In this document: piece after piece, positions 12,529 through 56,350 of the stretch
Numbering within the stretch: position 1 is the stretch's first letter
Layout: every line of letters begins with the position of its first letter
Assembly: GCF_027625995.1 (NCBI RefSeq)
Contig: NZ_CP115396.1
Coordinates: forward strand, 4,340,501-4,404,500
Direction: 5' to 3'
DNA from: Hymenobacter yonginensis
Lineage (GTDB): Bacteria; Bacteroidota; Bacteroidia; Cytophagales; Hymenobacteraceae
DNA length: 64,000 nt
Notes under the pieces: model-generated
Told to the model about the DNA's origin: nothing
What the model saw: the letters and a program-made list of their open reading frames with translations, nothing else
Database searches by the model: none
Made by a program: the position numbers and the translations under genes

Positions 12529-13908
12529 ATGCGCTACCCGACCTCCTTTCCCCGCCTGCTGCCCGCCCTGGGCCTGACGCTGCTGCTGCTGCCCGGCTGC
12601 TACTCCCGCTCCGATATGAAATCGGAAGAAGGAGCGGCCACTACTGATGTCAAAACGGAGACTCCGGCTGCCTCTGCGCCGGTCGCTACGTCTGCACCCG
12701 ACGCTCCCGAAGAAGCTGCTGATGTGGTCAGTGGCGCCGCTGCCCAGCCGCTGCAGGCTGTGAACGTGTTTCTGGAAGTGTCGGGCTCGATGGAAGGCTT
12801 CATGCCCAAAACCGGGGCCAGCGGCGAGAATACCCAGTTTCAGCAACACGTGGCGCAGCTGCTTTCGGAAATCAACCGGACGCCGGCCGCCCGGAAAAAG
12901 GCGTTCTTCCGCATCAAGGAGAAGCCCTACGCCGATACGTACCAGGGCATTTCGGCAACGGTGCGCAGCGGCATTCAGCAGCCCGCCAAAAGTACTGAGC
13001 TGCCCGCCGTGCTCGATACGCTGATGACGCGCTACTACCAGCCCGGCACCGTGAGCGTGCTGATTTCGGACTTTATTTACTCCCCGAAAAACGCCGGAGC
13101 CATTCCCTACATCAAAACCGACATCACCGATGCCCTCCAGCGCAACGGCGCGCAGCCGGAAATGGCCGTGTCGGTGTACGGCTACACCTCGGATTTCCGG
13201 GGCACGTACTACCCGGCTTTGAAGGCGGCCGGCAAAAAAACTGCCTGCTGCGACACCGAAATACCCTACTACATCTGGGTGCTGGGGCCGGCGGCGGCCG
13301 TGCGGCAGTTTGATGCCGCCCTGCTGGAGCAGCAGCCCGCCAAGCAGGCCCACTTCGGCGTCACGTATCCGCGGCCGGCGTATTCGCTGCTGAGCAAGTT
13401 CCAGAACAAGGGGAGCTGGTACTACGGCGACGCCGGGGCCAGCAAGCGCACCGCCGACGCCTACCGCGTGGTGGCCGTATCGGAAGCCTCGGCGCAGCAG
13501 CCGGTGGAGTTTGTAGTGGGGCTGAACCTGGGCCAGCTGCCCGGCCAGTACCGCGACGTAGCCTACCTCAAGCAGAACCTGACCCTGCAGGGCGTGGACA
13601 CCGACGCCAAGCTGCTAGACCTGCAGGCCGCCTCGGCCCAGACCAAGGCCAGCAGCGGCCCGGAAAGCAAGTTCACGCACTTCGCCAAAATCCGCCTCAC
13701 GAAAGCGCCCAAAGCGGCCCGCCCGCTGGTGCTGCGCCTCCAGGACCAGCGCCCCGCCTGGGTAGCCCAGTGGACCACCCGCAACGACGGCACGCCCGCG
13801 CCCAAAACCTTCGCCCTCAGCTCCCTGCTCGACGGACTGGAGCCGCAGGCAGCCGGGGAGAAGCGCCCGGTGTTTGAGCTGCCCCTGACCGTGCAGCCCG
13901 CCGAGTAG
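12529..13908 (+). CDS. lipoprotein with a degenerate von Willebrand factor A (vWA)-like domain
   Basis: 459 residues from the chosen ATG, which immediately precedes a lipoprotein signal (LGLTLLLLPGC); an ATG at 12490 would add 13 residues before the signal. After a Thr/Ala/Pro-rich linker, the sequence VNVFLEVSGSMEGFM resembles the first vWA strand and metal-site loop, but the DxSxS Asp is Glu (E83, S85, S87). The VSVLISDFIYSPK strand places an Asp (D181) where vWA domains often have one. The C-terminal half is beta-rich and not recognised. Likely location: outer leaflet facing the periplasm. It heads the nine-gene cluster. Assignment to the vWA fold is by motif only. Confidence 0.6.
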   Translation: MRYPTSFPRLLPALGLTLLLLPGCYSRSDMKSEEGAATTDVKTETPAASAPVATSAPDAPEEAADVVSGAAAQPLQAVNVFLEVSGSMEGFMPKTGASGENTQFQQHVAQLLSEINRTPAARKKAFFRIKEKPYADTYQGISATVRSGIQQPAKSTELPAVLDTLMTRYYQPGTVSVLISDFIYSPKNAGAIPYIKTDITDALQRNGAQPEMAVSVYGYTSDFRGTYYPALKAAGKKTACCDTEIPYYIWVLGPAAAVRQFDAALLEQQPAKQAHFGVTYPRPAYSLLSKFQNKGSWYYGDAGASKRTADAYRVVAVSEASAQQPVEFVVGLNLGQLPGQYRDVAYLKQNLTLQGVDTDAKLLDLQAASAQTKASSGPESKFTHFAKIRLTKAPKAARPLVLRLQDQRPAWVAQWTTRNDGTPAPKTFALSSLLDGLEPQAAGEKRPVFELPLTVQPAE

Positions 13909-13917
13909 CAGCATAAG

Positions 13918-14032
13918 CAGTAGCGCGAAGCCTTTGCTTCGCGTATAGCCGCGTACAAACGCACACTGAGCGCCACATTACTTGGCACGATAGTCGTTCA
14001 ACACCGCGCAAAGCAAAAGCTTCGCACTACTG
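13918..14032. repeat. nested inverted repeat inside the cluster
   Basis: Left arm 13918-13943 (CAGTAGCGCGAAGC...) matches the complement of 14007-14032 at 23 of 26 bases. The left arm is itself a hairpin (CGCGAAGC-CTTT-GCTTCGCG, 13924-13943). A further GCGAAG/CTTCGC pair lies at 14068-14085. The whole 189-base spacer between the vWA and membrane-protein genes is taken up by this structure. Confidence 0.7.
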
Positions 14033-14097
14033 ACAATTTCGCCCCTCGTCGTATCGTTCCACCACTCGCGAAGGGGAACTTCGCGTTACTTCCTTTC

Positions 14098-14490
14098 ATG
14101 AAAGCACTCTTCCGCTTCCTCTACGAACTCATCGGCGCCCCCCAACCACCCGCCGACACCCCCGTGTACCGCGACGTTATCTTCCCCAACCTGGGGCTGC
14201 TGAACCTGGGCGTTTCGCTGGGGCTGGTGGTGGTGTTTTACCTGCTCATCAACCGGGCTATGGGCGTGGCTACCTTTAACAAGGGCCGGCACTGGGCGCT
14301 GTTTCTGGGGCTGAATGCGCTGATTGCCTTCTTCGTCACCATCTGGCAGACCAACGCCCAGCAGGTCACCGACCACAGCTACATCTACTGGCTGGCCACT
14401 TGGAACGCCATCCTGGGCTTGTTCTGGTTTTTCCTGTTCTCGGTACTGCTCAAGCGCGCCTCCACCAACGCCAGCACGACACCGTTTTAG
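14098..14490 (+). CDS. small three-helix membrane protein of the cluster
   Basis: 130 residues. A short amphipathic start (MKALFRFLYELIG) precedes three hydrophobic segments at about residues 38-52, 66-83 and 99-120 (GVSLGLVVVFYLLINRA, WALFLGLNALIAFFVTIW, LGLFWFFLFSVLLK). It has no motif I recognise. It is likely to be an inner-membrane component of the machine encoded around it. Its position between the vWA lipoprotein and the tubulin-like GTPase, on the same strand, is the only functional clue. Confidence 0.65.
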   Translation: MKALFRFLYELIGAPQPPADTPVYRDVIFPNLGLLNLGVSLGLVVVFYLLINRAMGVATFNKGRHWALFLGLNALIAFFVTIWQTNAQQVTDHSYIYWLATWNAILGLFWFFLFSVLLKRASTNASTTPF

Positions 14491-14497
14491 AACTAAA

Positions 14498-14658
14498 GCT
14501 AAAAGCTAGTTCCCCTCCTTGGAAAGGAGGGGCTAGGGGTGGTTGATAATCGTTGGACGATGCAGAGCGAAATCGTTCCATTAAACAACATCAGCAACGA
14601 GCCAGCCACCCCAGTTCAGCCTTGCGGCTGAACGTCCCCTCCTCAGCTGATGAGGGGA
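14498..14658. repeat. cluster spacer with three hairpins; shared module A
   Basis: 14498-14547 (GCTAAAAGCTAGTTCCCCTC...) is nearly identical to the left arm of the repeat at 23557-23618 (module A). It includes a perfect 9-base stem, CCCCTCCTT-GGA-AAGGAGGGG (14512-14532). Further hairpins are GTTCAGCC-TTGC-GGCTGAAC (14614-14633) and CCCCTC...GAGGGG (14637-14658). Unlike the later copy, module A has no full complementary arm here, only fragments. Confidence 0.7.
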
Positions 14659-14681
14659 GTTTCGTTCAACATCAGCAACTC

Positions 14682-16130
14682 ATGGCTAAACTCTTTTTAT
14701 TCGGCATTGGCGGCACGGGTTCCCGCGTGATTCGCTCGCTCACGATGCTGCTGGCGGCGGGCGTGGAGCTGCCCAACTGCGACCGGGTAGTGCCCATCAT
14801 CATCGACCCCGACGCGCACAACGGCGACATGAACCGTACGGTGCAGCTGCTGCAGAGCTACCAGCAGATCTACAAGCGCCTCGGTCCCCGCGAAGAAGGC
14901 TTCTTCAAGACCGATATCAGCACGCTGAGCGGCATTTCGCAAGACGTGAACGGCTCGGTGAAAGACACCTTCATCTTCGATTTCGGCGGCATCAACCAAA
15001 GCTTCCGGCAGTACCTGAGCTACGACGGTCTGAGCGTGGACTCGAAGGGGCTGGTGGATCTGCTGTTCACCCAGGACAACCTGGAAAGCCCGCTGACCAT
15101 TGGCTTCCGCGGCTCCCCGAACGTGGGCAGCATTGTGCTGAATAAGCTGGTGGAAAGCCCGGAAATGCGGTTTTTCGCCGATAACTTCCAGGATGGCGAC
15201 CGGGTATTCTTCGTGTCGAGCATCTTCGGCGGCACGGGCGCGGCGGGTTTCCCGCTGATGCTCAAGAACCTGAAGGACACGAACACCCGCCTCAGCAACG
15301 CCCGCTACCTGCGCGACGCGCCCACCGGCGCCGTGACGGTGATGCCCTACTTCGCCCTCCAGAGCGAGGACAACGCCGTTATCGACTCCAACAACTTCCT
15401 CACCAAAACCAAGGCGGCGCTCAGCTACTACGAGCACAACCTGCAGGGCCTCGACGCGCTGTACTACCTCGCCGACACGCCCGACACGCCCTACGAAAAC
15501 CAGCCCGGCGGCACCCAGCAGAAGAACAAGGCCCACGTAATTGAGCTGCTGGCAGCCCTGAGCATCGTGGATTTCATGCGCTACTCGCCCGCCGAGCTGC
15601 GCACCGGCGGTCCGCACTTCCACGAGTACGGTCTGCAGACCGACTCACCGGAAATCCAGTTCAGCCACCTGCCCGATGAGACGCGGGAAATCATGGCCAA
15701 GCAGCTCACGCAGTTCCTGTACTTCACGCGCTACCACAAGCAGCACCTGCCCACCGACAAAGCGCCCTACGCCGACAACCTGAAGCTGGACTACGCCATG
15801 CGCAACGAGCCCATCTTCCGGGAGCTGAACACCTTCCTGCACAGCCAGGACATGGGCGTGGATCAGTGGCTGCAAGAGCTGGCCCAGAACCGCCGCGCCT
15901 TCCGCCCCTTCGACCTCCAAACCGACGACTTTAACGCCATGATCCTGGGCAAGCCGGTGGAAAAGAAGTGGAACGACTTCTTCAACAAGGGCCTCAGCCA
16001 CAACTACCTGCTCGACAACCTCAACAAAACCGAGAAGTCCATCCAGGAACCCGACAACTTCCGCAAGCTGCTGGAGCTGTTCTATGATGTGACGGATAAG
16101 GCGTTTGAGGAGAAGGTGAAGGTGGTGTAA
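14682..16130 (+). CDS. tubulin-like GTPase (Tubulin_2-like)
   Basis: 482 residues, starting at the ATG directly before the first nucleotide loop rather than at the in-frame ATG 129 bases upstream, which lies in repeat DNA. The N-terminus KLFLFGIGGTGSRV (G8-S14) fits the first loop of the tubulin/FtsZ fold. IIIDPDAHNGDMN supplies the following acidic loop, and FVSSIFGGTGAAG (183-189) matches the tubulin signature GGGTG(T/S)G. This pattern is typical of the divergent bacterial tubulin-like proteins, not of FtsZ, and there is no FtsZ-type C-terminal peptide. It should bind GTP and may polymerise. Its stop overlaps the next ATG (TAATG), so the following small gene is translationally coupled. Confidence 0.75.
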   Translation: MAKLFLFGIGGTGSRVIRSLTMLLAAGVELPNCDRVVPIIIDPDAHNGDMNRTVQLLQSYQQIYKRLGPREEGFFKTDISTLSGISQDVNGSVKDTFIFDFGGINQSFRQYLSYDGLSVDSKGLVDLLFTQDNLESPLTIGFRGSPNVGSIVLNKLVESPEMRFFADNFQDGDRVFFVSSIFGGTGAAGFPLMLKNLKDTNTRLSNARYLRDAPTGAVTVMPYFALQSEDNAVIDSNNFLTKTKAALSYYEHNLQGLDALYYLADTPDTPYENQPGGTQQKNKAHVIELLAALSIVDFMRYSPAELRTGGPHFHEYGLQTDSPEIQFSHLPDETREIMAKQLTQFLYFTRYHKQHLPTDKAPYADNLKLDYAMRNEPIFRELNTFLHSQDMGVDQWLQELAQNRRAFRPFDLQTDDFNAMILGKPVEKKWNDFFNKGLSHNYLLDNLNKTEKSIQEPDNFRKLLELFYDVTDKAFEEKVKVV

Positions 16131-16564
16131 TGTCAAGTCCCAAGACCTTGCCTGCATATTTGGAAGTCACATACCAAGTGCTTAAAAGCAGCTGGGGTAT
16201 TTCGATATGTATGGGTGCTTGGGGAACAATCGTCAATGATGTGCTTCTCGATTCTGCAGATGTTGTAGTAGCCGAATCTGGTGTAAGTGTGAGGAATAAA
16301 TCAGGGATTGTTCTGACGGATAATGAGAATAGTTTTTTCATAAAAGCAGTAAACCGAATCGAGCCGATTGCCAGAGAAATTCTGGGTGACAAGCGTATCG
16401 TAATTGATATAACCAAGCTCGATTTCAGCCACTGCGACTATCAGGAAGAAGGTGTCTATGCGGTTTTTATTAAGTGGTTTACCCGATTTTTTGAATTACA
16501 GGAGATAGAAGTTCCTGCTACATATGATAGATGCAGCAACAGATATGTTTTTCAAATAGGATGA
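16130..16564 (+). CDS. AT-rich small protein coupled to the tubulin-like gene
   Basis: 144 residues, no signal peptide or membrane helix. Composition is alternating hydrophobic/polar, suggesting a compact alpha/beta fold (GISICMGAWGTIVNDVLL, DKRIVIDITKLDFSHCDY). No family is recognised. The DNA is clearly more AT-rich than the tubulin-like gene before it or the actin-like gene after it. The one-base stop/start overlap makes it part of the operon despite the foreign composition. It could be a regulator, an adaptor, or an immunity-like protein acquired later; the sequence does not decide. Confidence 0.7.
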   Translation: MSSPKTLPAYLEVTYQVLKSSWGISICMGAWGTIVNDVLLDSADVVVAESGVSVRNKSGIVLTDNENSFFIKAVNRIEPIAREILGDKRIVIDITKLDFSHCDYQEEGVYAVFIKWFTRFFELQEIEVPATYDRCSNRYVFQIG

Positions 16565-16588
16565 AGTCCTGCGCAAAAGTGAAATAGA

Positions 16589-19500
16589 ATGGCCAAAGTC
16601 CTTCGCTTACATAACAACGGCTCCCAGCAGGTGCAGGGCTGGCAGAAAACCGCCCCCGTTACCAGCACCGAAATCAATACCGTGACCGACCCCGCGGGCG
16701 GCAAGTCGCGCAACCTAGCCGTGAGTATCCCGACGCCGTTTGCGCGGATGCACCTGTTTGAAACGGCCTTCGACTTTCTGGCCCGGGAGGGGCAGCGCAA
16801 CCCCGGCTCGGTGTACCACGAGCTGACCACGCACTTCTGGGATTTGCTGGAGTTGCTCTACAACTACCACCTCTACACCCAGGCCGGCCGCAAAATCACG
16901 CTGCGCCGCTGGAATGCCGAGGCCGAAATCCGCCGGATGCGGCAGGACGAGGGTACGCGCCTGCTGGGCGAAACCCTGCAGCTATACATGCAGGACGAGC
17001 GGTTCCGCGACTTCTCGGATATGTATCTGGTGTACTATGAGTCGCCGGAACTGGCGGGAGGCACGCGCCTGCTGGGCGGTACCTCGCCGCTCACGATCCT
17101 GTTCACCGGCCCCGCCGTGAAGCCCCTGGACTTGGAGCGGCCCCAGGCCCGCGGCCACTACTTCGACCAGCAGACCGTGCTGCTCGAAGACCGCGACCCG
17201 CAGTTCCGGGAGTTCGTGTATGAGCTGTTTCTGGCCTATCCGCAGCTGCAGCGCCGCGAGTTTGCCGGCAGCGTGTACGCCGGCCTCGACCGCTCAAAAA
17301 TCAACCAGCTCCAGATGCAGGGCGACCGGAGCGCCCAGCAGTTTGCCGCCCGCTACCCGGCCTTGGCCGACGTGCAGGGCAACCTGGTGAGCGTGAAAGG
17401 CGTGCCCCTGCCCGGCCGCGCCGACCAGTCGGCCGTGACCAGCTCCGACCTGTTCATCCAGCCCACCCGCGAATCGACGACGGGCCGGCCGCGCCCCCTG
17501 GTGCTGCGCCCGAACCTGACGATGCCTGGCGCCAACTACCTCAATGGCCAGCCTTGGGACGACCGCACGCCGGTACCGTACTACGATGAAGTGGCGCTGG
17601 AAAGCCGCGTGCTGCCCGGCAAAGGCTTCAAGTACCCCTACCTCACGGTAGGCGACCTGCTGGAAGACTCCCTGGTGGAGCTGCCCTACGAGTTGAATAC
17701 CCAGCGCTTCCACACCGGCAAAGTCACCTTCCAGTATGGGGCTGATGGTCAGGGCCGGGCGCGATTTCCGTATCTGCTGCCGCTGAAACAGGCGTTTTTC
17801 GAGTATTTCACCGAGAACGAGCTGGCCGAGCTGCTCACCTTCACCATCGACCTGAGCCACGTGCGCGTGCAGCTGCGGGTGCCGGTGCAGGCAGGCCGCT
17901 TCATCACCTTCGAGCGCAGCTACTACCACAATCCGCAGAACCCCAAGGACGCCCAGGGCCGTGAGATTCTGGAGAAGGGCCGCATTGTGAAAGCCGCCGT
18001 GGGCGTGGGCGTGTTCCCGTTCTACAAGGTGCGTTACCAGCCCGAGTACAACGACCTCTACAAAGTGATGCTGGTGGATGCCGACAACGCGCCCACCATG
18101 CTCAACCGCCGCTACGACCTCACGTTCTTCGTGAACGGGGAGCGAATCACGGAGCAGGGAGCCGCCCGTCGCGCCACCCGCTATGAGCGCACCCAGAAGA
18201 GCATGGCCACCGCTGGCAGCACGTATTACGAAGTCACCGGCACCCATTTCGACTTGGCTGAGCTGACCTGCCCGCCCGCCACCATCGGGGCGGAGCCAGC
18301 CCGGGGCCTGCTGGTGCCACGCTGGCGCGAGCTGGACCGCGGCACCCGTCGCTTCACGTTTGCCGTCGACTTCGGCACCACCAACACCCACATTGCCTAC
18401 GCCGATTCGCCGAGTGCCCACCCGCGCCCCCTCACCATCGGCGAGGCCGATGTGCAGGTAGAATGGCTGCACGCGCCGGTAGCCGACCAGGGCCTTTCGG
18501 CCGCCCAGCGCTACCGCACCGGGGCCGGGCAGATCTGGGACAACATTGCCACCCTGCAGAACCGGGAGTTTGTGCCCTCGTTCGTGGGCGAAGGCGGCTC
18601 GGTGTATGAGTTTCCGATTCGGACGGCGGTGTGCGAAACCACGTCGTTCGCCAACGAGCCGGCCAAGGTGCTCAGCAACACCAACATCGGCTTTAGCATC
18701 AACACCGAAAACACGGCCGAGCTGCCCCAGAACCGGTTCGTGACCAACCTGAAATGGTCGGCTGAGCTGGACCCGCAGGGTGTGGCCCGTATCGAGGCGT
18801 TTTTCCGGGAAATTCTGCTGCTGCTGCGCCACAAGGCAGCTCTGCACGGCGGTATTCTGGAAGACACCCGCGTGGTGTGGTTTGCGCCGCTGAGTTTTGA
18901 TGGGTTCCTGCGCAACCAGTTCCAGCAGGTCTGGGATGAGTCGTTCCAGCAGGTGTTCAAGACGCGCCGCGCTACCATCTGCCTCACCGAGTCGGTGGCC
19001 CCGTACTACTACCTCACCGCCACCAACCAGGTAGTGCCCAACCGCGACGAAAACGTGGTCAACATCGATATAGGCGGCGGCACCACCGATTTGCTGCTCT
19101 TCGCCGACCAGAAGCCGGCCTACAGCACCTCGTTCCGCTTCGCCGGCGACGACCTGTGGGGCGACGGCTACGCCCGCGTGCAGGGCGCGCCTAAGCAGAA
19201 CGGTCTGCTACGCCTCGGCGTGGGCCACGTGGAAAGCCTGCCCGATTCCGAGCAAAACCAGGAATACAAAGGCTACCTGCGCGCCGCCCTCAGCAACACC
19301 GATTTCGGCTCCGCCGACGTGACCAGCCTGCTGTTCAAGTACGATGATGCCCTGCGTTTCACCCAGGCCTTGGGCCTCGGCAAAGGCCGGCAGTTGCGGG
19401 TGCTGTTCTACCTGCACTACACCAGCATCATCTACCACACGGCCCAGCTCACCAAGCACCTCGGCCTGAAAACGCCGCGCTACCTCTGCTTCTCGGGCAA

Positions 19501-20053
19501 AGGCAGCCTTTACCTGCGCCTGCTGGCCGGGGGCAGCTCCCTGGTGGCCATTGAGAAGATTACGAAGGCCATCTTCCAGGCCGTGACGGGCGTGGAGCCG
19601 CCCCACAACTTCCGCGTCATCCTGGCCGACAACCCCAAGGAAGCCACCACCAACGGCGGCGTGCTGTTCGAGGAGAAAACCACCACCGACTACGACAACA
19701 TCAAGCCCGTGAAGTACAGCGGCGCCGTGGAAGGCACCGAGCTCAACCAGCAGCGCCTGAAGCTGAACCAGGTAGATGCCGAGCTGAAAAACACGGTGCT
19801 CGACAACGTGCGCAACTACCTCACCCTGGTGCTGGAAGGCGACGACGTAGCGCCCTACCTGCGCGAAGTAGGCGTGGACGTGGACCGTCAGCGCGTAAAA
19901 GACATCCTGCTCCGCGAAATCGAGGACAGCCTGAGCCTGGGCCTGCACCAGTTCCAGCGCCAGCTTTCCTCCGACGAAACCCTGCCCGAAACCCTGTTCT
20001 TCCTGCCGCTGAAACAGGCCCTATACAACCTAAGCCGCGAATTGCAGGCGTAG
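16589..20053 (+). CDS. 1154-residue protein with actin/Hsp70-type ATPase domain
   Basis: The first ~585 residues are an unrecognised region, rich in polar and aromatic residues. From about 590 an ASKHA (actin, sugar kinase, Hsp70) ATPase is evident: phosphate loop 1 FAVDFGTTNTHIAY (D594), phosphate loop 2 VVNIDIGGGTTDLLLF (D827), and an adenosine-type glycine motif CFSGKGSLYL (968-975). The two loops are 233 residues apart, longer than in DnaK, so extra subdomains are inserted. No DnaK-type substrate-binding domain is apparent. It resembles the large actin-like SrfB class in overall plan, but I cannot confirm homology. Beside a tubulin-like GTPase and stator proteins, it is likely a cytoplasmic ATPase of the same machine. 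Confidence 0.75.
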   Translation: MAKVLRLHNNGSQQVQGWQKTAPVTSTEINTVTDPAGGKSRNLAVSIPTPFARMHLFETAFDFLAREGQRNPGSVYHELTTHFWDLLELLYNYHLYTQAGRKITLRRWNAEAEIRRMRQDEGTRLLGETLQLYMQDERFRDFSDMYLVYYESPELAGGTRLLGGTSPLTILFTGPAVKPLDLERPQARGHYFDQQTVLLEDRDPQFREFVYELFLAYPQLQRREFAGSVYAGLDRSKINQLQMQGDRSAQQFAARYPALADVQGNLVSVKGVPLPGRADQSAVTSSDLFIQPTRESTTGRPRPLVLRPNLTMPGANYLNGQPWDDRTPVPYYDEVALESRVLPGKGFKYPYLTVGDLLEDSLVELPYELNTQRFHTGKVTFQYGADGQGRARFPYLLPLKQAFFEYFTENELAELLTFTIDLSHVRVQLRVPVQAGRFITFERSYYHNPQNPKDAQGREILEKGRIVKAAVGVGVFPFYKVRYQPEYNDLYKVMLVDADNAPTMLNRRYDLTFFVNGERITEQGAARRATRYERTQKSMATAGSTYYEVTGTHFDLAELTCPPATIGAEPARGLLVPRWRELDRGTRRFTFAVDFGTTNTHIAYADSPSAHPRPLTIGEADVQVEWLHAPVADQGLSAAQRYRTGAGQIWDNIATLQNREFVPSFVGEGGSVYEFPIRTAVCETTSFANEPAKVLSNTNIGFSINTENTAELPQNRFVTNLKWSAELDPQGVARIEAFFREILLLLRHKAALHGGILEDTRVVWFAPLSFDGFLRNQFQQVWDESFQQVFKTRRATICLTESVAPYYYLTATNQVVPNRDENVVNIDIGGGTTDLLLFADQKPAYSTSFRFAGDDLWGDGYARVQGAPKQNGLLRLGVGHVESLPDSEQNQEYKGYLRAALSNTDFGSADVTSLLFKYDDALRFTQALGLGKGRQLRVLFYLHYTSIIYHTAQLTKHLGLKTPRYLCFSGKGSLYLRLLAGGSSLVAIEKITKAIFQAVTGVEPPHNFRVILADNPKEATTNGGVLFEEKTTTDYDNIKPVKYSGAVEGTELNQQRLKLNQVDAELKNTVLDNVRNYLTLVLEGDDVAPYLREVGVDVDRQRVKDILLREIEDSLSLGLHQFQRQLSSDETLPETLFFLPLKQALYNLSRELQA

Positions 20054-20057
20054 CTAA

Positions 20058-20456
20058 ATGGGTAAAAGATCAGTAAAGCAACTAGTATTTTTTACAGCCT
20101 TCGGGGTATTTGTGTACTTCATGCACTCCAGCGGAAAAGAAGGTGATATAAAAGTGTATGCAAAGAATATCAGGAGCGAATACAGGGGAGTAATAATTGA
20201 AAAGTACCGTCGAAAAACAGGCTACATCAAAATTCGTACGGAGGATTCAATTATCGATATTCCTTTGCTAAGCCCTACGCTCGAAGAGAATGCGCAAGTA
20301 GGAGATTCAATAAAAAAGATTGCCTTAAAGAATGAATGTGTACTCACGAAAAATGGGCAGGTTATGCACATGGAGTATGTCTTCATTTCAGAATCAATAA
20401 GGAATGATAGTCGTTGGCCCAAAGACTTGTCACATGTAGTTGCCTCTGACGAATAG
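20058..20456 (+). CDS. AT-rich small membrane-anchored protein
   Basis: 132 residues, beginning 4 bases after the actin-like gene's stop. One N-terminal hydrophobic segment (LVFFTAFGVFVYFMHS) precedes a soluble, charged, probably beta-rich domain (YRGVIIEKYRRKTGYIKIRT, then IPLLSPTL and VGDSIKKIALKN). The DNA is AT-rich like the other small gene upstream of the actin-like gene, so both flanks of that gene carry compositionally foreign reading frames. Similar small anchored beta proteins occur in Bacteroidota without known function. Topology suggests the domain faces the periplasm. Confidence 0.65.
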   Translation: MGKRSVKQLVFFTAFGVFVYFMHSSGKEGDIKVYAKNIRSEYRGVIIEKYRRKTGYIKIRTEDSIIDIPLLSPTLEENAQVGDSIKKIALKNECVLTKNGQVMHMEYVFISESIRNDSRWPKDLSHVVASDE

Positions 20457-20506
20457 TACATTCATTGATTCGAATAAAAAAAGCCCGCTTCCTACCCCAA
20501 CACCCT

Positions 20507-21943
20507 ATGACCCTTTCCCGCCGCGTTGCTTCTTTGCTTACCGGCCTGCTGCTGCTTGCGGCGGGCGGCCATGCCCAAACGCCCCTCGGCCAGCCCACGC
20601 TGGAGGAGCGCAAAGTGCAAATCTGGTGCGCTACGGCCAAGTTCGTGTATGAAGACACGGGCCACCCCGAGCTGAAAAGCCAGCTGAAATGCGGCGGCCC
20701 GCTGAAGGAGTTTGCCGGCAGCATCAAGGCCGATGAGCAGCGCGTGTACTCGGCGCTGTACCAGCCGCTGGAGGTGCAGGGCGTGATGTACAAGGGTCTG
20801 GGCTCGGATAACTCCCGCCTGCAGACGCTGGTGCGCGAAATCATCAACCGGCTGCGCACCTCGCCCGCCCGCAAGGGCAATACCGCCCGGCTGGCCGGCG
20901 TAACGAAGCTGGAAACGGCCCTGAAAAACTACCTCGACCAGGGCACGCCCATCGGCGACCTGCCCGCGGCCGAAGCGGCTGCCGAAACCGAAACCGTCGA
21001 TACCACCGCCACCACCGACGAGGCCACGGCTGCCGCCCCCGGCGACGCGGGCCTGGACGAGGCGGGCGTGGCTACTCCCACACCAGCCGCCGCATCCGGG
21101 GCCGGGGAAAGCCTGATGAACAAGTTTTTTGGCCCTCTGGGGCTGATTCTGGCCCTGCTGAGTCTGGTGCTGTACGCGCTGATGCGCAAGAGCCTCGGGG
21201 AATTTCAGAAGGAGCTGAGCGCCCGCATCGACAAGCGCCGCGACGAAATTCTGGCCCTGCAAACAACGCCCGGCAGCAGCGGTAAGCCCGCCGAGCGGTT
21301 CTCGCCGGCCCAGCTGCGCGAGCTGGAACAATTGATTCAGCAGCGCGTGGAGCAGGAACTGCAGAAGCGCCAGACCGCGCCGAAAGCCAACGTAGCTGCT
21401 GCCGCTCCGGCCCCGGCTCCGCAACCCGTAGCGCCTGCGCCGGCTCCGGTAGCACCGCCTGTGCCGGCGGCAGCGCCCGCGCCGGCTCCGGTGCCGCCCA
21501 CGGCTGCTCCGGCCGCCCCGGTAACCAGTCCCGCCGCCCCGCATGAGGAGTTCGACAGCCTGATACCGCCCGTGCAGCTGCCAACTGCGCCCGCCGCTGC
21601 CCCGGCCGTATCCGCCGCCGACCTGCCCCGCACGCGCTACGTGAAGGTGCCCGTAAACGGCGTGTTCAATGAGTACGACTTCTCCGACGAGCCCCAGCAC
21701 GACAGCATCTACGAGATTCACCTGGACCCCCAGTGGCCCGAGCTGGCCACGTTCAGCGTAACGCAGAACCCGGCCGTGCACGCCTACGCCATCCAGAGCG
21801 CCCAGTATTCCCTGCGCGAAGCCTGCAAGTACCAGCAGCCCGCCGGCCCGGTCACGCGCATCGTGACGGAGGAAGAAGGCGTGCTGCGCAAAGCCGCCGG
21901 CTCCTGGCAGATCGAGCAGAAAGCCGCCATCCGGTTTGAGTAG
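20507..21943 (+). CDS. membrane protein with signal peptide, one helix, coiled coil and Pro/Ala-rich linker
   Basis: 478 residues from the ATG that opens the signal peptide (LLTGLLLLAAGGHAQ). Order: a periplasmic helical region (about 25-160), an acidic Thr/Ala-rich linker (about 160-200), a transmembrane helix near 204-226 (FGPLGLILALLSLVLYALM), a charged coiled coil (EFQKELSARIDKRRDEI), a Pro/Ala-rich linker at about 298-365 made of PAPAP/VAPAP repeats, and a C-terminal globular domain of about 105 residues (RTRYVKVPVNGVFNEYDF...). With a cleaved signal the linker and last domain should be cytoplasmic. The layout suggests a tether between the periplasm and the cytoplasmic NTPases. No family recognised. 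Confidence 0.65.
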   Translation: MTLSRRVASLLTGLLLLAAGGHAQTPLGQPTLEERKVQIWCATAKFVYEDTGHPELKSQLKCGGPLKEFAGSIKADEQRVYSALYQPLEVQGVMYKGLGSDNSRLQTLVREIINRLRTSPARKGNTARLAGVTKLETALKNYLDQGTPIGDLPAAEAAAETETVDTTATTDEATAAAPGDAGLDEAGVATPTPAAASGAGESLMNKFFGPLGLILALLSLVLYALMRKSLGEFQKELSARIDKRRDEILALQTTPGSSGKPAERFSPAQLRELEQLIQQRVEQELQKRQTAPKANVAAAAPAPAPQPVAPAPAPVAPPVPAAAPAPAPVPPTAAPAAPVTSPAAPHEEFDSLIPPVQLPTAPAAAPAVSAADLPRTRYVKVPVNGVFNEYDFSDEPQHDSIYEIHLDPQWPELATFSVTQNPAVHAYAIQSAQYSLREACKYQQPAGPVTRIVTEEEGVLRKAAGSWQIEQKAAIRFE

Positions 21944-21946
21944 ATA

Positions 21947-22053
21947 ACGCCTGTCATCCTGAGCTTGCGAAGGACCTTTTTACGTTTGAGCGAACCTCGT
22001 AATACTGGCTTGTTCTCGCGTGATAAGGTCCTTCCTTCGTCAGGATGACAGCG
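21947..22053. repeat. inverted repeat, GTCATCCTGAG family
   Basis: Left arm (21947-21985) reads ACGCCTGTCATCCTGAGC...; the right arm (22017-22053) matches it imperfectly on the other strand, with small indels in the GCGAAGGACC part. It fills the spacer between the linker protein and the MotA-like gene. The same family occurs at 24422-24523, 25685-25794 and, collapsed, near 43155. Confidence 0.8.
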
Positions 22054-22078
22054 TGGGAATGCCGTACTTTACTGTTCT

Positions 22079-23539
22079 ATGCTTGAAATCATCCTCGAAG
22101 TTCTGGTGGTGACCGTGGTGGTGGGGCTGCAGATTCGCACGTTTCTGCGGACGCGGGCCAATGCCCGGCGACTGGCCGTGCTGTATCCGCCCAAGGAAAG
22201 CCTGCGCGTGGAGCACCGCATTGTGCTGCCCGACGGCCGCGACCTGCCCGAATACGCCGCCGACGCCCCGCCCGAGTCCTTCGCCTCCAACCTGCTGAAG
22301 GCCGAAAACGCCTCGCCCGAGTTCCAGGAAATCCTGCTCGATACCAATGACTACCTGCGCCACAACAAGGGCGCGGCGGCCGATTTCGGTATTCTGAAGG
22401 ACATTTCGGAGCGCCAGAGCGAGGTGCTGGACAATGCGGTGCAGGCCGAGGTGGCCACTCCCCTGTATCTGGGGCTGCTGGGCACGTTTCTGGGCGTGAT
22501 TCTGGGCCTCGTGGGCATTGCCCGCAACGGCGTATCCGATGAAAACGCGCTGACGCCCTTCCTCACCGGCGTGCTCATTGCCATGACGGGCTCCTTCGTG
22601 GGGCTGCTGCTCACGCTGCTCGGCAACGGCGTGTTGCGCCAGGCCCGCCACCAGCTCGACCGACTCCAGAACCAGTACTACACCTTCCTGCAGGCCCGCC
22701 TGCTGCCGGTGCTGCACGCCGATATGGCCAGCTCGCTCACCAACCTCAAGTCGGTGCTCGATGCGTTCAACCAGCAGTTTGTGGGCCAGGTGGAGCTGTT
22801 CAACCCGCTCATGGAGAAGGTCACGCAGAACATCCGGGTGCAGAGCGACTTCCTGGAGCGCCTCGATACCATCGGCTACGACAAGATGGCGGCGGCCAAT
22901 ATCCTGGTGTTTGAGAAGGTGCGCGAGTCGGCCGAAATGTTCAGCGCCTTTACCGGCTACCAGCAACGCCTCAACGAGATGCTGCAGAATGGCTACCACT
23001 CGGCCGAGGCCGTGAACAGCATCCTGGACCGACTGCGGGGCTTCGAGAAGGGTATCAACGACCTGGGCCAGTACATCGGCGGCAACAACAACTCGGTGCA
23101 GCTGATGCTGGATTTCTTCCAGAAGCACCAAGTGGAGCTGCGCAACCTCAAGGACCGCGCCGAGCAGCACATCGACCAGGCCGGCGTCGGCCTCGCCGAT
23201 GTGATGAACAAGCGCCTAGCCTATAACGAGCGGCAGGCCCAGCTGGCCTACGAGAAGTGGCAGCAGTATTTCGAGCAGCTCAACGCCGACAACGTCTTCG
23301 AAAAGCTGCTGAAACAGCTGGAGCCCTTCCAGAACCTTAACACCCAGCAAGCCGACCTCAGCCGCGACGTCACGGCCACCCAGCGCGAGTTGCTGCGCAA
23401 AGTGGAAGTCGATTCCCAGATTCAGGCCAAGCTGCTGGCGGAGTTGTCCAACCTGAACACCGTGCTGGTGAAAGCCACGTCCAAGAACCGTTTCCAGCGG
23501 TTTATGGACAAGCTGTTTGGCGGGGTGAAGCCGCAGTAG
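22079..23539 (+). CDS. MotA/TolQ/ExbB-like stator protein with long cytoplasmic tail (ZorA-like plan)
   Basis: 486 residues. One hydrophobic helix at the extreme N-terminus (residues 2-20), then a soluble stretch, then two helices typical of MotA/TolQ/ExbB: ATPLYLGLLGTFLGVILGLV (about 124-146) and LTPFLTGVLIAMTGSFVGLL (about 158-180). About 300 predicted helical residues follow in the cytoplasm (for example RLDTIGYDKMAAANILVFEK). Known family members form pentamers around two MotB-like subunits and conduct ions. The very long tail recalls ZorA of Zorya defence systems rather than TolQ or flagellar MotA. Its partner is the next gene. Confidence 0.8.
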   Translation: MLEIILEVLVVTVVVGLQIRTFLRTRANARRLAVLYPPKESLRVEHRIVLPDGRDLPEYAADAPPESFASNLLKAENASPEFQEILLDTNDYLRHNKGAAADFGILKDISERQSEVLDNAVQAEVATPLYLGLLGTFLGVILGLVGIARNGVSDENALTPFLTGVLIAMTGSFVGLLLTLLGNGVLRQARHQLDRLQNQYYTFLQARLLPVLHADMASSLTNLKSVLDAFNQQFVGQVELFNPLMEKVTQNIRVQSDFLERLDTIGYDKMAAANILVFEKVRESAEMFSAFTGYQQRLNEMLQNGYHSAEAVNSILDRLRGFEKGINDLGQYIGGNNNSVQLMLDFFQKHQVELRNLKDRAEQHIDQAGVGLADVMNKRLAYNERQAQLAYEKWQQYFEQLNADNVFEKLLKQLEPFQNLNTQQADLSRDVTATQRELLRKVEVDSQIQAKLLAELSNLNTVLVKATSKNRFQRFMDKLFGGVKPQ

Positions 23540-23556
23540 TGGCAGTGTCGACATGG

Positions 23557-23720
23557 ATTAGAGCTAAAAGCTAGAAGCTAGTTCCCCTCCTTGGAAAGGA
23601 GGGGCTAGGGGTGGTTGATTCGTTGAACGACCCGCTAGCTTTAGTAACCGTTCTAACGCGAGGTCAACCACCCCTAACCCCTCCTTTCCAAGGAGGGGAA
23701 CTAGCTCTCTAGCTCTAATT
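23557..23720. repeat. large inverted repeat with module A, between the two stator genes
   Basis: Left arm 23557-23618 and right arm 23664-23720. Over the GCTAGTTCCCCTCC... core (about 41 bases) the arms are complementary with one mismatch; the outer ATTAGAGCTA ends also pair. Each arm contains its own CCCCTCCTT/AAGGAGGGG hairpin, so alternative foldings are possible. The left arm duplicates 14498-14547. Confidence 0.85.
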
Positions 23721-23732
23721 ACTTTCCTCTCC

Positions 23733-24416
23733 ATGAACAACACCACCTCCAACAAACGCCAAAGCAACGACTTCTTCTGGCCCAGCTACGTGGACCTGAT
23801 GACATCCTTGTTCGTGGTGATGCTGGTGCTGTTCGTGTACAGCTTCAAACTGTTCAAGGACCGGGAAGGGGAGCTGAAGCAGGCCAACGGCGAGCTGAAA
23901 GCCAAGGCTATCGAGCTGGAGCAGATTACCCGCATCCGGGAGTCGCTGCGGCGGCTAGAGGGGCGCTACTTCCGCTACGACCCCCAGAACGAGCGGTACG
24001 AACTGAAGCTAAACGTGCAGTTCAAAGCCGGCCGCGACGAAATTCAGGATAGCTACAAGCCGGCACTGCTGCAGGCCGGCCAGCTGCTGCGGGAGCGGCT
24101 GCGCAGCCTTAGCGCCACCAACCAAGGCCAGAACGTGCGCTACTTGGTGATTGTGGAAGGCATGGCCGCCCGCTACCCCCAAGGCGACCCGCGCAACCAG
24201 CGCGAGGAGCAGGCCACCTACCAGCTCAGCTACCGCCGGGCCCTCAACCTGCTCAACCTCTGGAAGGAGAACAACCTCAACTTCAGCCAGGACCGCAGCA
24301 TTGAGCTCATCATCGGCGGCAGCGGCTTCTACGGCACCGGCCGCTACACCGGCCGCCGAGAAGGCGACAACAAACGCTTCTTGATTCAGGTGATTCCGAA
24401 GGTAGGGCGGATGTAG
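23733..24416 (+). CDS. MotB/OmpA-like stator partner (ZorB-like plan)
   Basis: 227 residues. FFWPSYVDLMTSLFVVMLVL at residues 14-33 is a typical MotB-type plug and helix with the essential ion-carrying Asp (D21). A coiled linker (GELKQANGELKAKAIELEQI) leads to an OmpA-like domain from about residue 85 (QFKAGRDEIQD, LLQAGQLLRERL, YLVIVEGMAA, LSYRRALNLLNLW). This domain should bind peptidoglycan, although the GHTDxxGxxxxN motif is changed to EGMAARYPQGDPRN. Together with the preceding MotA-like protein it should form a proton- or sodium-driven unit. It is the last gene of the cluster, before a perfect inverted repeat. Confidence 0.85.
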   Translation: MNNTTSNKRQSNDFFWPSYVDLMTSLFVVMLVLFVYSFKLFKDREGELKQANGELKAKAIELEQITRIRESLRRLEGRYFRYDPQNERYELKLNVQFKAGRDEIQDSYKPALLQAGQLLRERLRSLSATNQGQNVRYLVIVEGMAARYPQGDPRNQREEQATYQLSYRRALNLLNLWKENNLNFSQDRSIELIIGGSGFYGTGRYTGRREGDNKRFLIQVIPKVGRM

Positions 24417-54763: not shown

Positions 54764-56350
54764 ATGGCGGGAGGTAAAGAAACTCCACGGCAGAAGATGA
54801 TTGGCATGATGTACCTGGTACTGACTGCACTTCTGGCCCTTCAAGTAAACTCAGCAATTCTGCTCAAGTTCAAATTTTTGGATGACAGCCTTTTCGGCAT
54901 CAACGAAAAGGTATCGAAATCCAATGATGGCACGGTTAAAGGCATTGCAGCCCAGGTTGAAAAAAACCGCAATACTGCCGCCGACGTTGCCGTTCTGAAG
55001 CAGAGCGAAGAAATTCGGGAGCGTACCAAGCAGATGATTGATTATCTGCGCGGTGTACGCGACAAACTCGTAACGGCCACGGAAAACACCAAAGGCAAGA
55101 ACGAGTACAAAAACATGAGCGCCGAAGACAAGGTGGCCATCACCATGCTCGGCGGCAAAAAAGACGGTGCAGCCTATGAGATGAAGAACAAACTCAACGA
55201 GTATTCTTCTTACATCAAGACGTTTGTACCCGGTGCCGAGCCGCTGGCTCTCGATGCCAAGGACGACAAGATGGTGACTGATCCGGAGCAGCGCTCCAAG
55301 AACTTCGCCGAGTTGAACTTCGAGAACACGCCGCTGGTAGCTGCTTTGGCTACGTTGTCGCAGAAAGAAACCGAAGTATTGAAGTACGAGTCGGATGCTC
55401 TGGCTGCACAATCGGCTAAAGTAGGTGGCAACATCATCGTATTCGACAAAGTAGGCGCTTTCGCCTCCGCTGAGTCGAACACGGTAGCTGCTGGCACTAA
55501 GTACAAGGCAGAACTGTTCCTGACGGCTTCGGCTACGGGCTTGCGTCCTACCATGACCCTGAACGGCTCGCCTCTTTCGGTTGATGCTTCTACCGGCAAA
55601 GGCAAAGTGGAATTCACGGCTCGTCCGGGTTCTTTTGACGCCGCTGGCAACGCCAAGGCGCAGTGGACCGGTACTATCCGCTTTAAGCAGAACGGCCGCG
55701 ACACCACGTTTAAAGTGACGGTTCCTTACACCGTAACCAAGCCTGTAATGCAGATCCAGTCGGCTTCGGTGCAGGCGCTGTATTTCAAGTGCGGCAACAA
55801 GCTGAGCGTACAGGTTCCTGCCCTGGGTGCCCAGTACGATCCAAGCTTCTCGGCTTCGGGTGCTTCTACCATCAAAGGTTCGGCTAAGGGCGAAGTAACG
55901 CTGGTGCCAAACTCGCGCGAAGTAACCCTGAGCGTAAGCAGCGGCGGCAACCCAATCGGCTCGCAGACTTTCCAAGTTCGCCCGATTCCAAAGCCGGAGA
56001 TTAAGTGCATCGTTGGTGGCCGCGAGGCAAACGAAAAGCAAGGCACGCCTATCACGGCTGTGCGCAACATGAGCCTGAAGGCCGTTCCGGATGCTGGTTT
56101 CGCTACGTTCCTGCCCGAAGATGCTCGTTACCGGGTAACGCGCTACGAAGTAACGCTGGTACGTGGTAAGCGTCCGGCTATGCCGACGCGCACGGTCAAC
56201 GGTCCTGACGTTAGCCTGAACGACGTAGTAAACTCGGCCCGCGAAGGCGACCGTCTGTACATCGAAGTGAAAGAAGTTCAGCGCATGAACTTCCAGGGCA
56301 ACACCGAGCAGGTAAACGTGTCGAAGCAGTTCAACGTGCCGTTGCTGTAA
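54764..56350 (+). CDS. gldM: T9SS motor/periplasmic shaft protein GldM/PorM
   Basis: 528 residues. MAGGKETPRQKMIGMMYLVL starts the single helix (about 14-34), preceded by the conserved PRQKMI segment. The periplasmic part begins with a helical domain (FGINEKVSKSNDGTVKGIA) and continues with immunoglobulin-like beta domains (about 220-510), ending VSKQFNVPLL. It spans the periplasm from the GldL motor to the GldKN ring. Codon use here and in gldL is more relaxed (GCT, GTA) than in the flanking housekeeping genes. Confidence 0.95.
   Translation: MAGGKETPRQKMIGMMYLVLTALLALQVNSAILLKFKFLDDSLFGINEKVSKSNDGTVKGIAAQVEKNRNTAADVAVLKQSEEIRERTKQMIDYLRGVRDKLVTATENTKGKNEYKNMSAEDKVAITMLGGKKDGAAYEMKNKLNEYSSYIKTFVPGAEPLALDAKDDKMVTDPEQRSKNFAELNFENTPLVAALATLSQKETEVLKYESDALAAQSAKVGGNIIVFDKVGAFASAESNTVAAGTKYKAELFLTASATGLRPTMTLNGSPLSVDASTGKGKVEFTARPGSFDAAGNAKAQWTGTIRFKQNGRDTTFKVTVPYTVTKPVMQIQSASVQALYFKCGNKLSVQVPALGAQYDPSFSASGASTIKGSAKGEVTLVPNSREVTLSVSSGGNPIGSQTFQVRPIPKPEIKCIVGGREANEKQGTPITAVRNMSLKAVPDAGFATFLPEDARYRVTRYEVTLVRGKRPAMPTRTVNGPDVSLNDVVNSAREGDRLYIEVKEVQRMNFQGNTEQVNVSKQFNVPLL

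Follow-up and report, generated by a model that had tools for sequence, protein, structure and literature searches.

A conserved gene cluster linking predicted tubulin-type and actin-type proteins, often together with a ZorAB-like stator pair

Several described gene systems resemble the cluster found at positions 12529-24416 of the 64,000-nucleotide DNA stretch analysed here (NZ_CP115396.1; the whole stretch is hereafter the window), which encodes a tubulin/FtsZ-type protein (TUB) and an actin/Hsp70-like protein (ASKHA) together with a vWA-like lipoprotein, the membrane proteins TM130 and M492, and a MotA/MotB-type stator pair (MOTA and MOTB). In Synechocystis, Sll0445 (Tubulin_2), Sll0446 (FtsA-like) and Sll0447 (DivIC) co-fractionate with pilus assembly proteins, and phototaxis is impaired when any one of the three is mutated (PMC9880817). 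These consecutively numbered genes code for tubulin-like, actin-like and DivIC-type (coiled-coil) proteins, an arrangement that recalls the cyanobacterial relatives of our cluster, in which TUB is followed by ASKHA; they differ in being cyanobacterial, and no stator is mentioned with them in the accessible text.

The FtsZl1 systems (Makarova and Koonin 2010, PMC2875224) bring together an FtsZ-like protein, a vWA protein, an OmpA-type protein and several membrane proteins. The FtsZ-like component is found in our cluster, and a putative vWA partner is suggested there by motif. FtsZl1 systems also have features of their own: a P-loop GTPase, often kinases, and mostly a coiled-coil and a helical C-terminus. 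Neither a P-loop GTPase nor a protein kinase was matched by Pfam among the nine proteins of our locus, the set that was scanned systematically. The words 'Hsp70' and 'MotA' do not occur in the main text of that paper, and none of its 'actin' passages available to us names a partner. A 2023 survey equated the FtsZl1 group with the Tubulin_2 model and set it aside as divergent (PMC9871819). The GAP1-N2 GTPase-centric systems (Kaur et al. 2020, PMC7159879) contain tubulin-domain, HSP70 and vWA components near the membrane. They centre, however, on TRAFAC GTPases, none of which was matched by Pfam among our nine proteins, and their tubulin and HSP70 themes are described as not overlapping, whereas here both occur together and sometimes in a single frame.

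The ZorAB motor of Zorya shares with our stator pair a 5:2-type stator signature, a transmembrane Asp, a wall-binding domain on the B subunit and a long cytoplasmic tail on the A subunit, a tail that matters for Zorya (PMC11890865). Zorya subtypes are reported to differ in their occurrence from strain to strain, the usual pattern for anti-phage systems (PMC11890865), while our cluster is present genus-wide and the partners of its stator are TUB and ASKHA. A study of MotAB relatives makes no mention of tubulin in its accessible text (PMC12505986). A paired or fused TUB-ASKHA unit with a ZorAB-like stator did not surface in literature searches limited to open-licence papers. An earlier note on this DNA, which knew of no described system with this gene set, was thus too categorical, given the FtsZl1 (PMC2875224), GTPase-centric tubulin/HSP70/vWA (PMC7159879) and Synechocystis Tubulin_2/FtsA/DivIC (PMC9880817) precedents. 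The cluster belongs to a known, little-studied kind, of which the ASKHA pairing or fusion and the ZorAB-like stator are a new variation.

The locus comprises nine open reading frames (ORFs), all on the plus strand, and both their order and the sequence motifs that the earlier note gave for them were recovered. The exact nine-gene set nevertheless proved too inclusive: seven genes are conserved (vWA-like lipoprotein, TM130, TUB, ASKHA, M492, MOTA and MOTB) and two are hitchhikers. In iterative profile searches over 101 sequences (100 loci, chosen via TUB, and the window), the 144-amino-acid (aa) ORF at 16130-16564 matched the window itself and nothing else, and the 132 aa ORF at 20058-20456 matched 3 of the 101; both are local insertions outside the conserved set. 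The first 40 of these loci are all Hymenobacter (TUB identity 84-99%) and, having been retrieved through TUB, are uninformative on genomes devoid of it. The other 60 were hand-picked, not drawn at random, from the matches of phylum and order searches to spread over identity, the phylum and order tallies sharing genomes. The lipoprotein, TM130, TUB, ASKHA and M492 genes lie on one strand in 45 of these 60 loci, and a check of their order found no departure. The genes thus adjoin in related genomes and beyond, a point on which the earlier note let its proposal stand or fall. This conserved gene set exceeds chance, and we define a seven-gene system consisting of a five-gene core (lipoprotein, TM130, TUB, ASKHA and M492) and an optional stator (MOTA and MOTB).

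Assignment of TUB to the FtsZ/tubulin superfamily relies on motifs and profiles. The window protein reads MAKLFLFGIGGTGSR...FGGTGAAG; the T1-like motif recurs in 101 of 102 collected TUB ORFs and FGGTG in 100 (start codons of collected ORFs were set by rule, so that some starts are approximate). Among 30 diverse members, PF13809 (Tubulin_2) and PF00091 (Tubulin) each match 21 at E<=0.01, with best values of 3e-9 and 5.5e-7 respectively; the PF13809 cut-off of 27 bits is clearly passed by the TUB of Gloeothece (40.8) and narrowly by that of L111 (27.8). A PDB search with the TUB profile returned a tubulin/FtsZ GTPase as best match (E=0.019), and hhalign aligned the T1 loops of TUB and Bacteroidota FtsZ (P=0.0026, other TUB comparisons giving 0.16-0.68); the loci L182 and L203 contributed no sequence to the FtsZ and MreB profiles, respectively. 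From these matches TUB is classified within the Tubulin_2 group of the superfamily, a classification that holds at the family level.

The ASKHA protein of the window carries the motifs DFGTTNTH...DIGGGTTD, and the phosphate-1 and phosphate-2 patterns were each found in 84 of 93 ASKHA ORFs. A PDB search with a 27-row profile retrieved the actin family (6e-7), MreB (6e-7) and Hsc70 (5e-5), and the C-terminal half of the protein matches the MreB profile in hhalign (P=3e-7; controls 0.29-0.30), while its N-terminal 575 aa matched no family in Pfam or hhalign. Judged by motifs and profiles, ASKHA is a member of the actin/Hsp70 superfamily. The tubulin-type and actin-type labels of the earlier note therefore survive profile searches for the families as a whole; the window's own proteins fall under the Pfam cut-offs (TUB with PF00091, E=0.0036; ASKHA with FtsA, E=0.0049; likewise MOTA with PF01618, E=2e-4), and their structure models lend no fold support.

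Three observations tie TUB to ASKHA. They are neighbours at the loci described above. A comparison of the two genome lists from an order sample of 291 genomes shows TUB in 90 and ASKHA in 91, with all 90 TUB genomes carrying ASKHA; the sole genome with ASKHA only, G395, is 72% complete, and the co-occurrence persists where the genes lie on separate contigs (G297, G343 and G368). Finally, both share one open frame in three other genomes. The G408 fusion of 1630 aa (TUB at 8-484, ASKHA at 500-1630) ends at a contig end. Those of G216 (1615 aa) and G271 (1681 aa) both contain CGGTGAHV, a VGGTG loop, DLGGGTLD and either AVDFGTSHS or AIDFGTSHS; their ASKHA part gave a modest profile match in G216 (4e-5) and was found in G271 only with filters off, so that its recognition relies partly on the motifs. 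TUB and ASKHA are a linked pair by co-occurrence in the sampled order, gene neighbourhood and natural fusion, and the single-frame fusions argue that its two members work jointly.

The lipoprotein was earlier described as vWA-like. Of 90 ORFs, 79 carry its pattern resembling a metal ion-dependent adhesion site (MIDAS), 75 of them having Glu in place of Asp and 4 having Asp, and the Picosynechococcus relative reads DGSGSM by eye. The motif part of that description thus holds; no Pfam or PDB profile matched the protein as vWA, and the label is accordingly one of motif.

The earlier note also described a stator pair resembling ZorAB, and this likeness is borne out. The Asp of MOTB that it placed in the plug lies in the transmembrane segment, at the ion-binding position of MotB and ZorB, within the motif WPSYVDLMT; D is found there in all 63 collected MotB-family ORFs. 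Residues T136, S172 and T179 of MOTA are invariant in 20 alignment rows, and together these are the features of 5:2 ion-driven stators, whose B subunit has an Asp within the membrane and whose A subunit has conserved Thr/Ser. In PADLOC, MOTB is similar to ZorB1 (E=5e-13) and MOTA to ZorA2 (E=2e-4); in PDB searches type I ZorB was the best match of MOTB (8vvn_B, E=4e-11) and ZorA the best motor with the MOTA profile (0.003). Among solved motors, ZorAB is by these matches the nearest to our pair. Membership in Zorya itself was rejected, since the scores with the NCBIfam Zor models were 14.8 and 25.9 bits, where the cut-offs are 500 and 400, and no effector was matched: among the nine cluster proteins scanned, ZorC, ZorD and ZorE had no match, and the seven proteins other than the stator pair had no PADLOC match at E<=1.

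The stator is a variable part of the system. Both genes are present in 25 of the 45 full-core loci and neither in 18; the remaining two show MOTA only, one at a contig end (L088) and one with 1.2 kb left (L079). The MotB family was not found anywhere in the 16 stator-less genomes searched, G348 and G367 lying outside that search, and in all four control genomes its sole copy sits inside the cluster. In some lineages other genes fill the stator position, coding for a retropepsin-like and a WG-repeat protein in L092 and for a trypsin-like protease in L111. The clusters with the G216 and G271 fusions also hold vWA-like, MotA-like and MotB-like genes (motif WPAIADLMT); their MotA-like proteins lack a MotA_ExbB match, and it is largely the helical tail that matches ZorA. 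ZorB is matched by the MotB-like protein of G271 (0.007) and not by that of G216. Because these profile matches are weak or missing, the stator calls there are made on architecture and motif. A clearer case is G589, from another family, whose cluster includes an OmpA-domain MotB (PF00691 1e-16, ZorB3 3e-27) and a MotA-like protein slightly under the cut-off (PF01618 1e-4). The ion-powered machine proposed in the earlier note thus finds a stator in many loci, but since the stator is optional, ion power cannot define the core.

Outside the genus the cluster is sparse: TUB was found in 15 of 395 genomes of a phylum sample (8 of 296 with a single-sequence search). Plasmids of Gloeothece and Picosynechococcus carry a lipoprotein gene (on the opposite strand in Gloeothece), a small transmembrane protein recognised by position, and TUB followed by ASKHA, with Pfam matches to Tubulin_2 and FtsA; the Picosynechococcus plasmid also has an M492-like gene (E=1e-7). 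In Prevotella, a 1.77 Mb replicon that is catalogued with plasmids encodes the lipoprotein, TM130, TUB, ASKHA and M492. None of 50,697 phage records matched, and a phage origin was rejected on that ground; among the putative viral contigs of IMG/VR five loci were found, two of them with lipoprotein, TM130, TUB, ASKHA, MOTA and MOTB. Distant relatives, whose TUB is 22-24% identical to that of the window, lie beside an OmpA-domain protein gene in L125 and a TerD gene in L126.

Within the genus, by contrast with this sparseness, no searched genome is without the cluster's TUB. The genus is that of the nearest genome, G001, and is taken to be Hymenobacter from the 99% identity of its TUB and the share of window sequence that it contains. 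TUB was found in 120 of 120 genomes, as one match in 113 (some of them partial), two adjacent pieces in six and three pieces in one, the fragmented G739, where they are partial contig pieces. The frame is split at differing places in the six (G374, G679, G689, G711, G728 and G736), probably through frame errors of assembly. All 40 closest loci retain the NTase and LemA genes upstream. TUB comes in two divergent forms, one being 84-99% identical to that of the window and the other about 44-54%. The RpoB of G413 and G509 groups with that of first-form species (95.7-95.8% identity to G001), yet their TUB is of the second form; by RpoB, one first-form species, G561, falls among those with the second form. 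These trees, read without support values, took in 29 of 30 genomes (G528 was left out). The G413/G509 cluster is inverted and borders on the same two genes, NTase and LemA; on the side away from them one old gene, an A-type M492 (49-51% identity), has stayed behind. In L089, one of the two loci concerned, all seven genes are nearer the second form, and in the other, L131, all seven are as far from the window. The entire cluster has thus been exchanged, at its site, for a divergent version. As it was so replaced and yet is missing from no searched genome of the genus, a standing function appears to be wanted. Spacers in the 40 Hymenobacter loci often hold varied small ORFs, often between TUB and ASKHA; examples, named by eye, are a Y1-transposase-like one in 8 loci and a DUF559-like one in 2.

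Table 1. Genes of the cluster in the window, with relatives counted by the iterative profile searches over 101 sequences unless loci are given
Feature	Coordinates	Strand	Remarks
vWA-like lipoprotein, 459 aa, lipobox LPGC	12529..13908	+	MIDAS-like 'EVSGSM', 'VLISDF'; relatives in 90/101
TM130, small multi-span membrane protein, 130 aa	14098..14490	+	about three transmembrane helices by eye; relatives 89/101
TUB, predicted tubulin/FtsZ superfamily, Tubulin_2 type, 482 aa	14682..16130	+	profiles and T1-like/FGGTG motifs; relatives 101/101
ORF of 144 aa, local insertion	16130..16564	+	relatives in 0/40 Hymenobacter loci and 0/60 further loci
ASKHA, predicted actin/Hsp70-like, 1154 aa	16589..20053	+	N-terminal ~575 aa without match, then nucleotide-binding domain; relatives 92/101
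ORF of 132 aa, N-terminal transmembrane segment by eye, not conserved	20058..20456	+	relatives in 1/40 and 1/60 loci
M492, signal peptide, periplasmic segment, one transmembrane segment, Ala/Pro-rich coiled region, conserved C-terminal domain	20507..21943	+	topology by eye; the ATG at 20507 fits homologues better as start; relatives 84/101
MOTA, stator subunit of MotA/ZorA type, 486 aa, with a ~300 aa helical tail	22079..23539	+	relatives 66/101
MOTB, MotB/ZorB-type stator subunit, 227 aa, transmembrane Asp21, OmpA-like C-terminal domain by motif	23733..24416	+	relatives 63/101

Elsewhere in the window, about 30 kb from the cluster, a GldM gene (54764-56350, four GldM domains in Pfam) lies among same-strand neighbours spanning about 52.7-57.3 kb; GldM is a gliding/type IX secretion system-type ion-driven motor, and a connection of the cluster with gliding is conceivable. 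Two of the distant TUB-ASKHA clusters have neighbours of their own: that of L126 (286-3363, minus strand) has the TerD gene (PF02342) and further similar ORFs by eye, and that of L140 (17682-18863) has by eye the look of a mobile element, with ORFs like the one of L125 that lacks a Pfam match. A link of L126 and L140 to Ter stress systems is possible. Directly 3' of ASKHA, a further protein is encoded in L125 (5474-6877), L126 (3480-4928) and L140 (14980-17622); it has no Pfam match in the first two and weak TPR matches in the third.

We propose, at about even odds (roughly 0.5), that the cluster encodes a membrane-anchored tubulin/actin-type scaffold for an envelope or surface apparatus, a single nucleotide-driven assembly that is coupled to a stator in many Bacteroidota. 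In the cytosol, TUB with GTP and ASKHA with ATP would come together on the part of M492 exposed there, and TM130 and M492 would anchor this assembly at the inner membrane. From the periplasm, the lipoprotein may sense the envelope or dock to it. Where present, a MotA5MotB2 stator would be held to peptidoglycan by its OmpA-like domain, and MOTA could use its long tail to transmit torque from the ion flow, or else a conformational signal, to the assembly; the localisation, polymerisation and ion coupling of this assembly are what we infer. The assembly might build, position or power an envelope-spanning or surface apparatus serving motility or envelope upkeep. A standing cell function, rather than a mainly anti-phage one, is most likely. 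A bolder form of the idea, in which tubulin and actin/Hsp70 homologues, naturally fused in some species, form one composite cytoskeleton with a rotary stator, powered by protons or sodium, as its direct drive, so that nucleotide hydrolysis and the ion gradient both feed it, is unlikely though by no means far-fetched.

Several points weigh against the proposed scaffold. Prevotella carries the core, yet we know of no gliding or pilus-based movement in it. The spacer insertions, and the TerD genes adjoining one distant cluster, would fit a stress or conflict role. The hhalign probability for TUB against FtsZ is just 11.5%, and no T7 catalytic loop was identified in TUB, so that its GTP hydrolysis is predicted at most and unproven. 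The models of TUB and ASKHA, built on Hymenobacter-only alignments, have predicted local distance difference test (pLDDT) scores of 41 and 36.7; they support neither fold nor interface, and Foldseek with the TUB model found no match at E<=0.001 but weak ones to FtsZ/tubulin and to malate dehydrogenase. In the PDB search with the MOTA profile, coiled-coil proteins come out on top, above ZorA, and 20 of the 45 full-core loci do not show the two stator genes together. The Synechocystis proteins are likened to ours by Pfam domain and gene order and not by sequence. Moreover, electron transport by photosystem II is altered in the mutants of Sll0445-0447, and photosystems, too, co-fractionate with these proteins (PMC9880817), for which reason the motility defect may be indirect.

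One alternative is an anti-phage or conflict system resembling the GTPase-centric ones of Kaur et al. 2020: the stator would detect, in the manner of Zorya, the damage that an entering phage does to the envelope, and a switchable TUB/ASKHA assembly would trigger an effector. The ZorB1 and ZorA2 matches and the place of ZorAB as nearest solved motor speak for it, as do the tubulin, HSP70 and vWA components of predicted conflict systems (PMC7159879) and the behaviour of the core, which resides on cyanobacterial plasmids, is swapped for divergent versions, is sparse in the phylum and has a distant relative beside TerD. We nonetheless consider it doubtful, and the defence role raised in the earlier note is disfavoured, because the cluster is found throughout the genus, unlike the strain-variable Zorya subtypes (PMC11890865), is replaced in place, and has no defence-model match for its seven other proteins, hence no recognisable effector; the phage records, too, are without it.

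Alternatively, the cluster could be a general machine for envelope stress or membrane remodelling, akin to the FtsZl1 systems, with a tubulin polymer reshaping the inner membrane and the stator or OmpA protein tying it to the wall. It would account for the Tubulin_2 family, the vWA-like and OmpA-type partners and the several membrane proteins, and for the OmpA-domain and TerD proteins of the distant clusters. Given the nine proteins without a P-loop GTPase or kinase match, and no direct evidence of membrane reshaping seen in any member, we deem it quite unlikely as a separate account, although it overlaps with the scaffold that we favour. That the locus houses independent modules, a TUB-ASKHA-M492 complex and a merely adjacent ZorAB-like stator, would suit the stator-less loci and genomes and the many spacers with variable insertions but is very unlikely in view of the sole MotB copies inside the control clusters, the stator-like genes beside the G216 and G271 fusions (weak evidence) and in G589, and the divergent form of all seven genes in L089.

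Relatives of tubulin, relatives of actin and rotary stators are normally studied apart; here they meet in one conserved locus. If homology with the Synechocystis trio holds, the mutants of that organism (PMC9880817) would open the core to laboratory tests, and the stator-bearing versions of Bacteroidota would be the place to learn whether a cytoskeleton can run on an ion motor.

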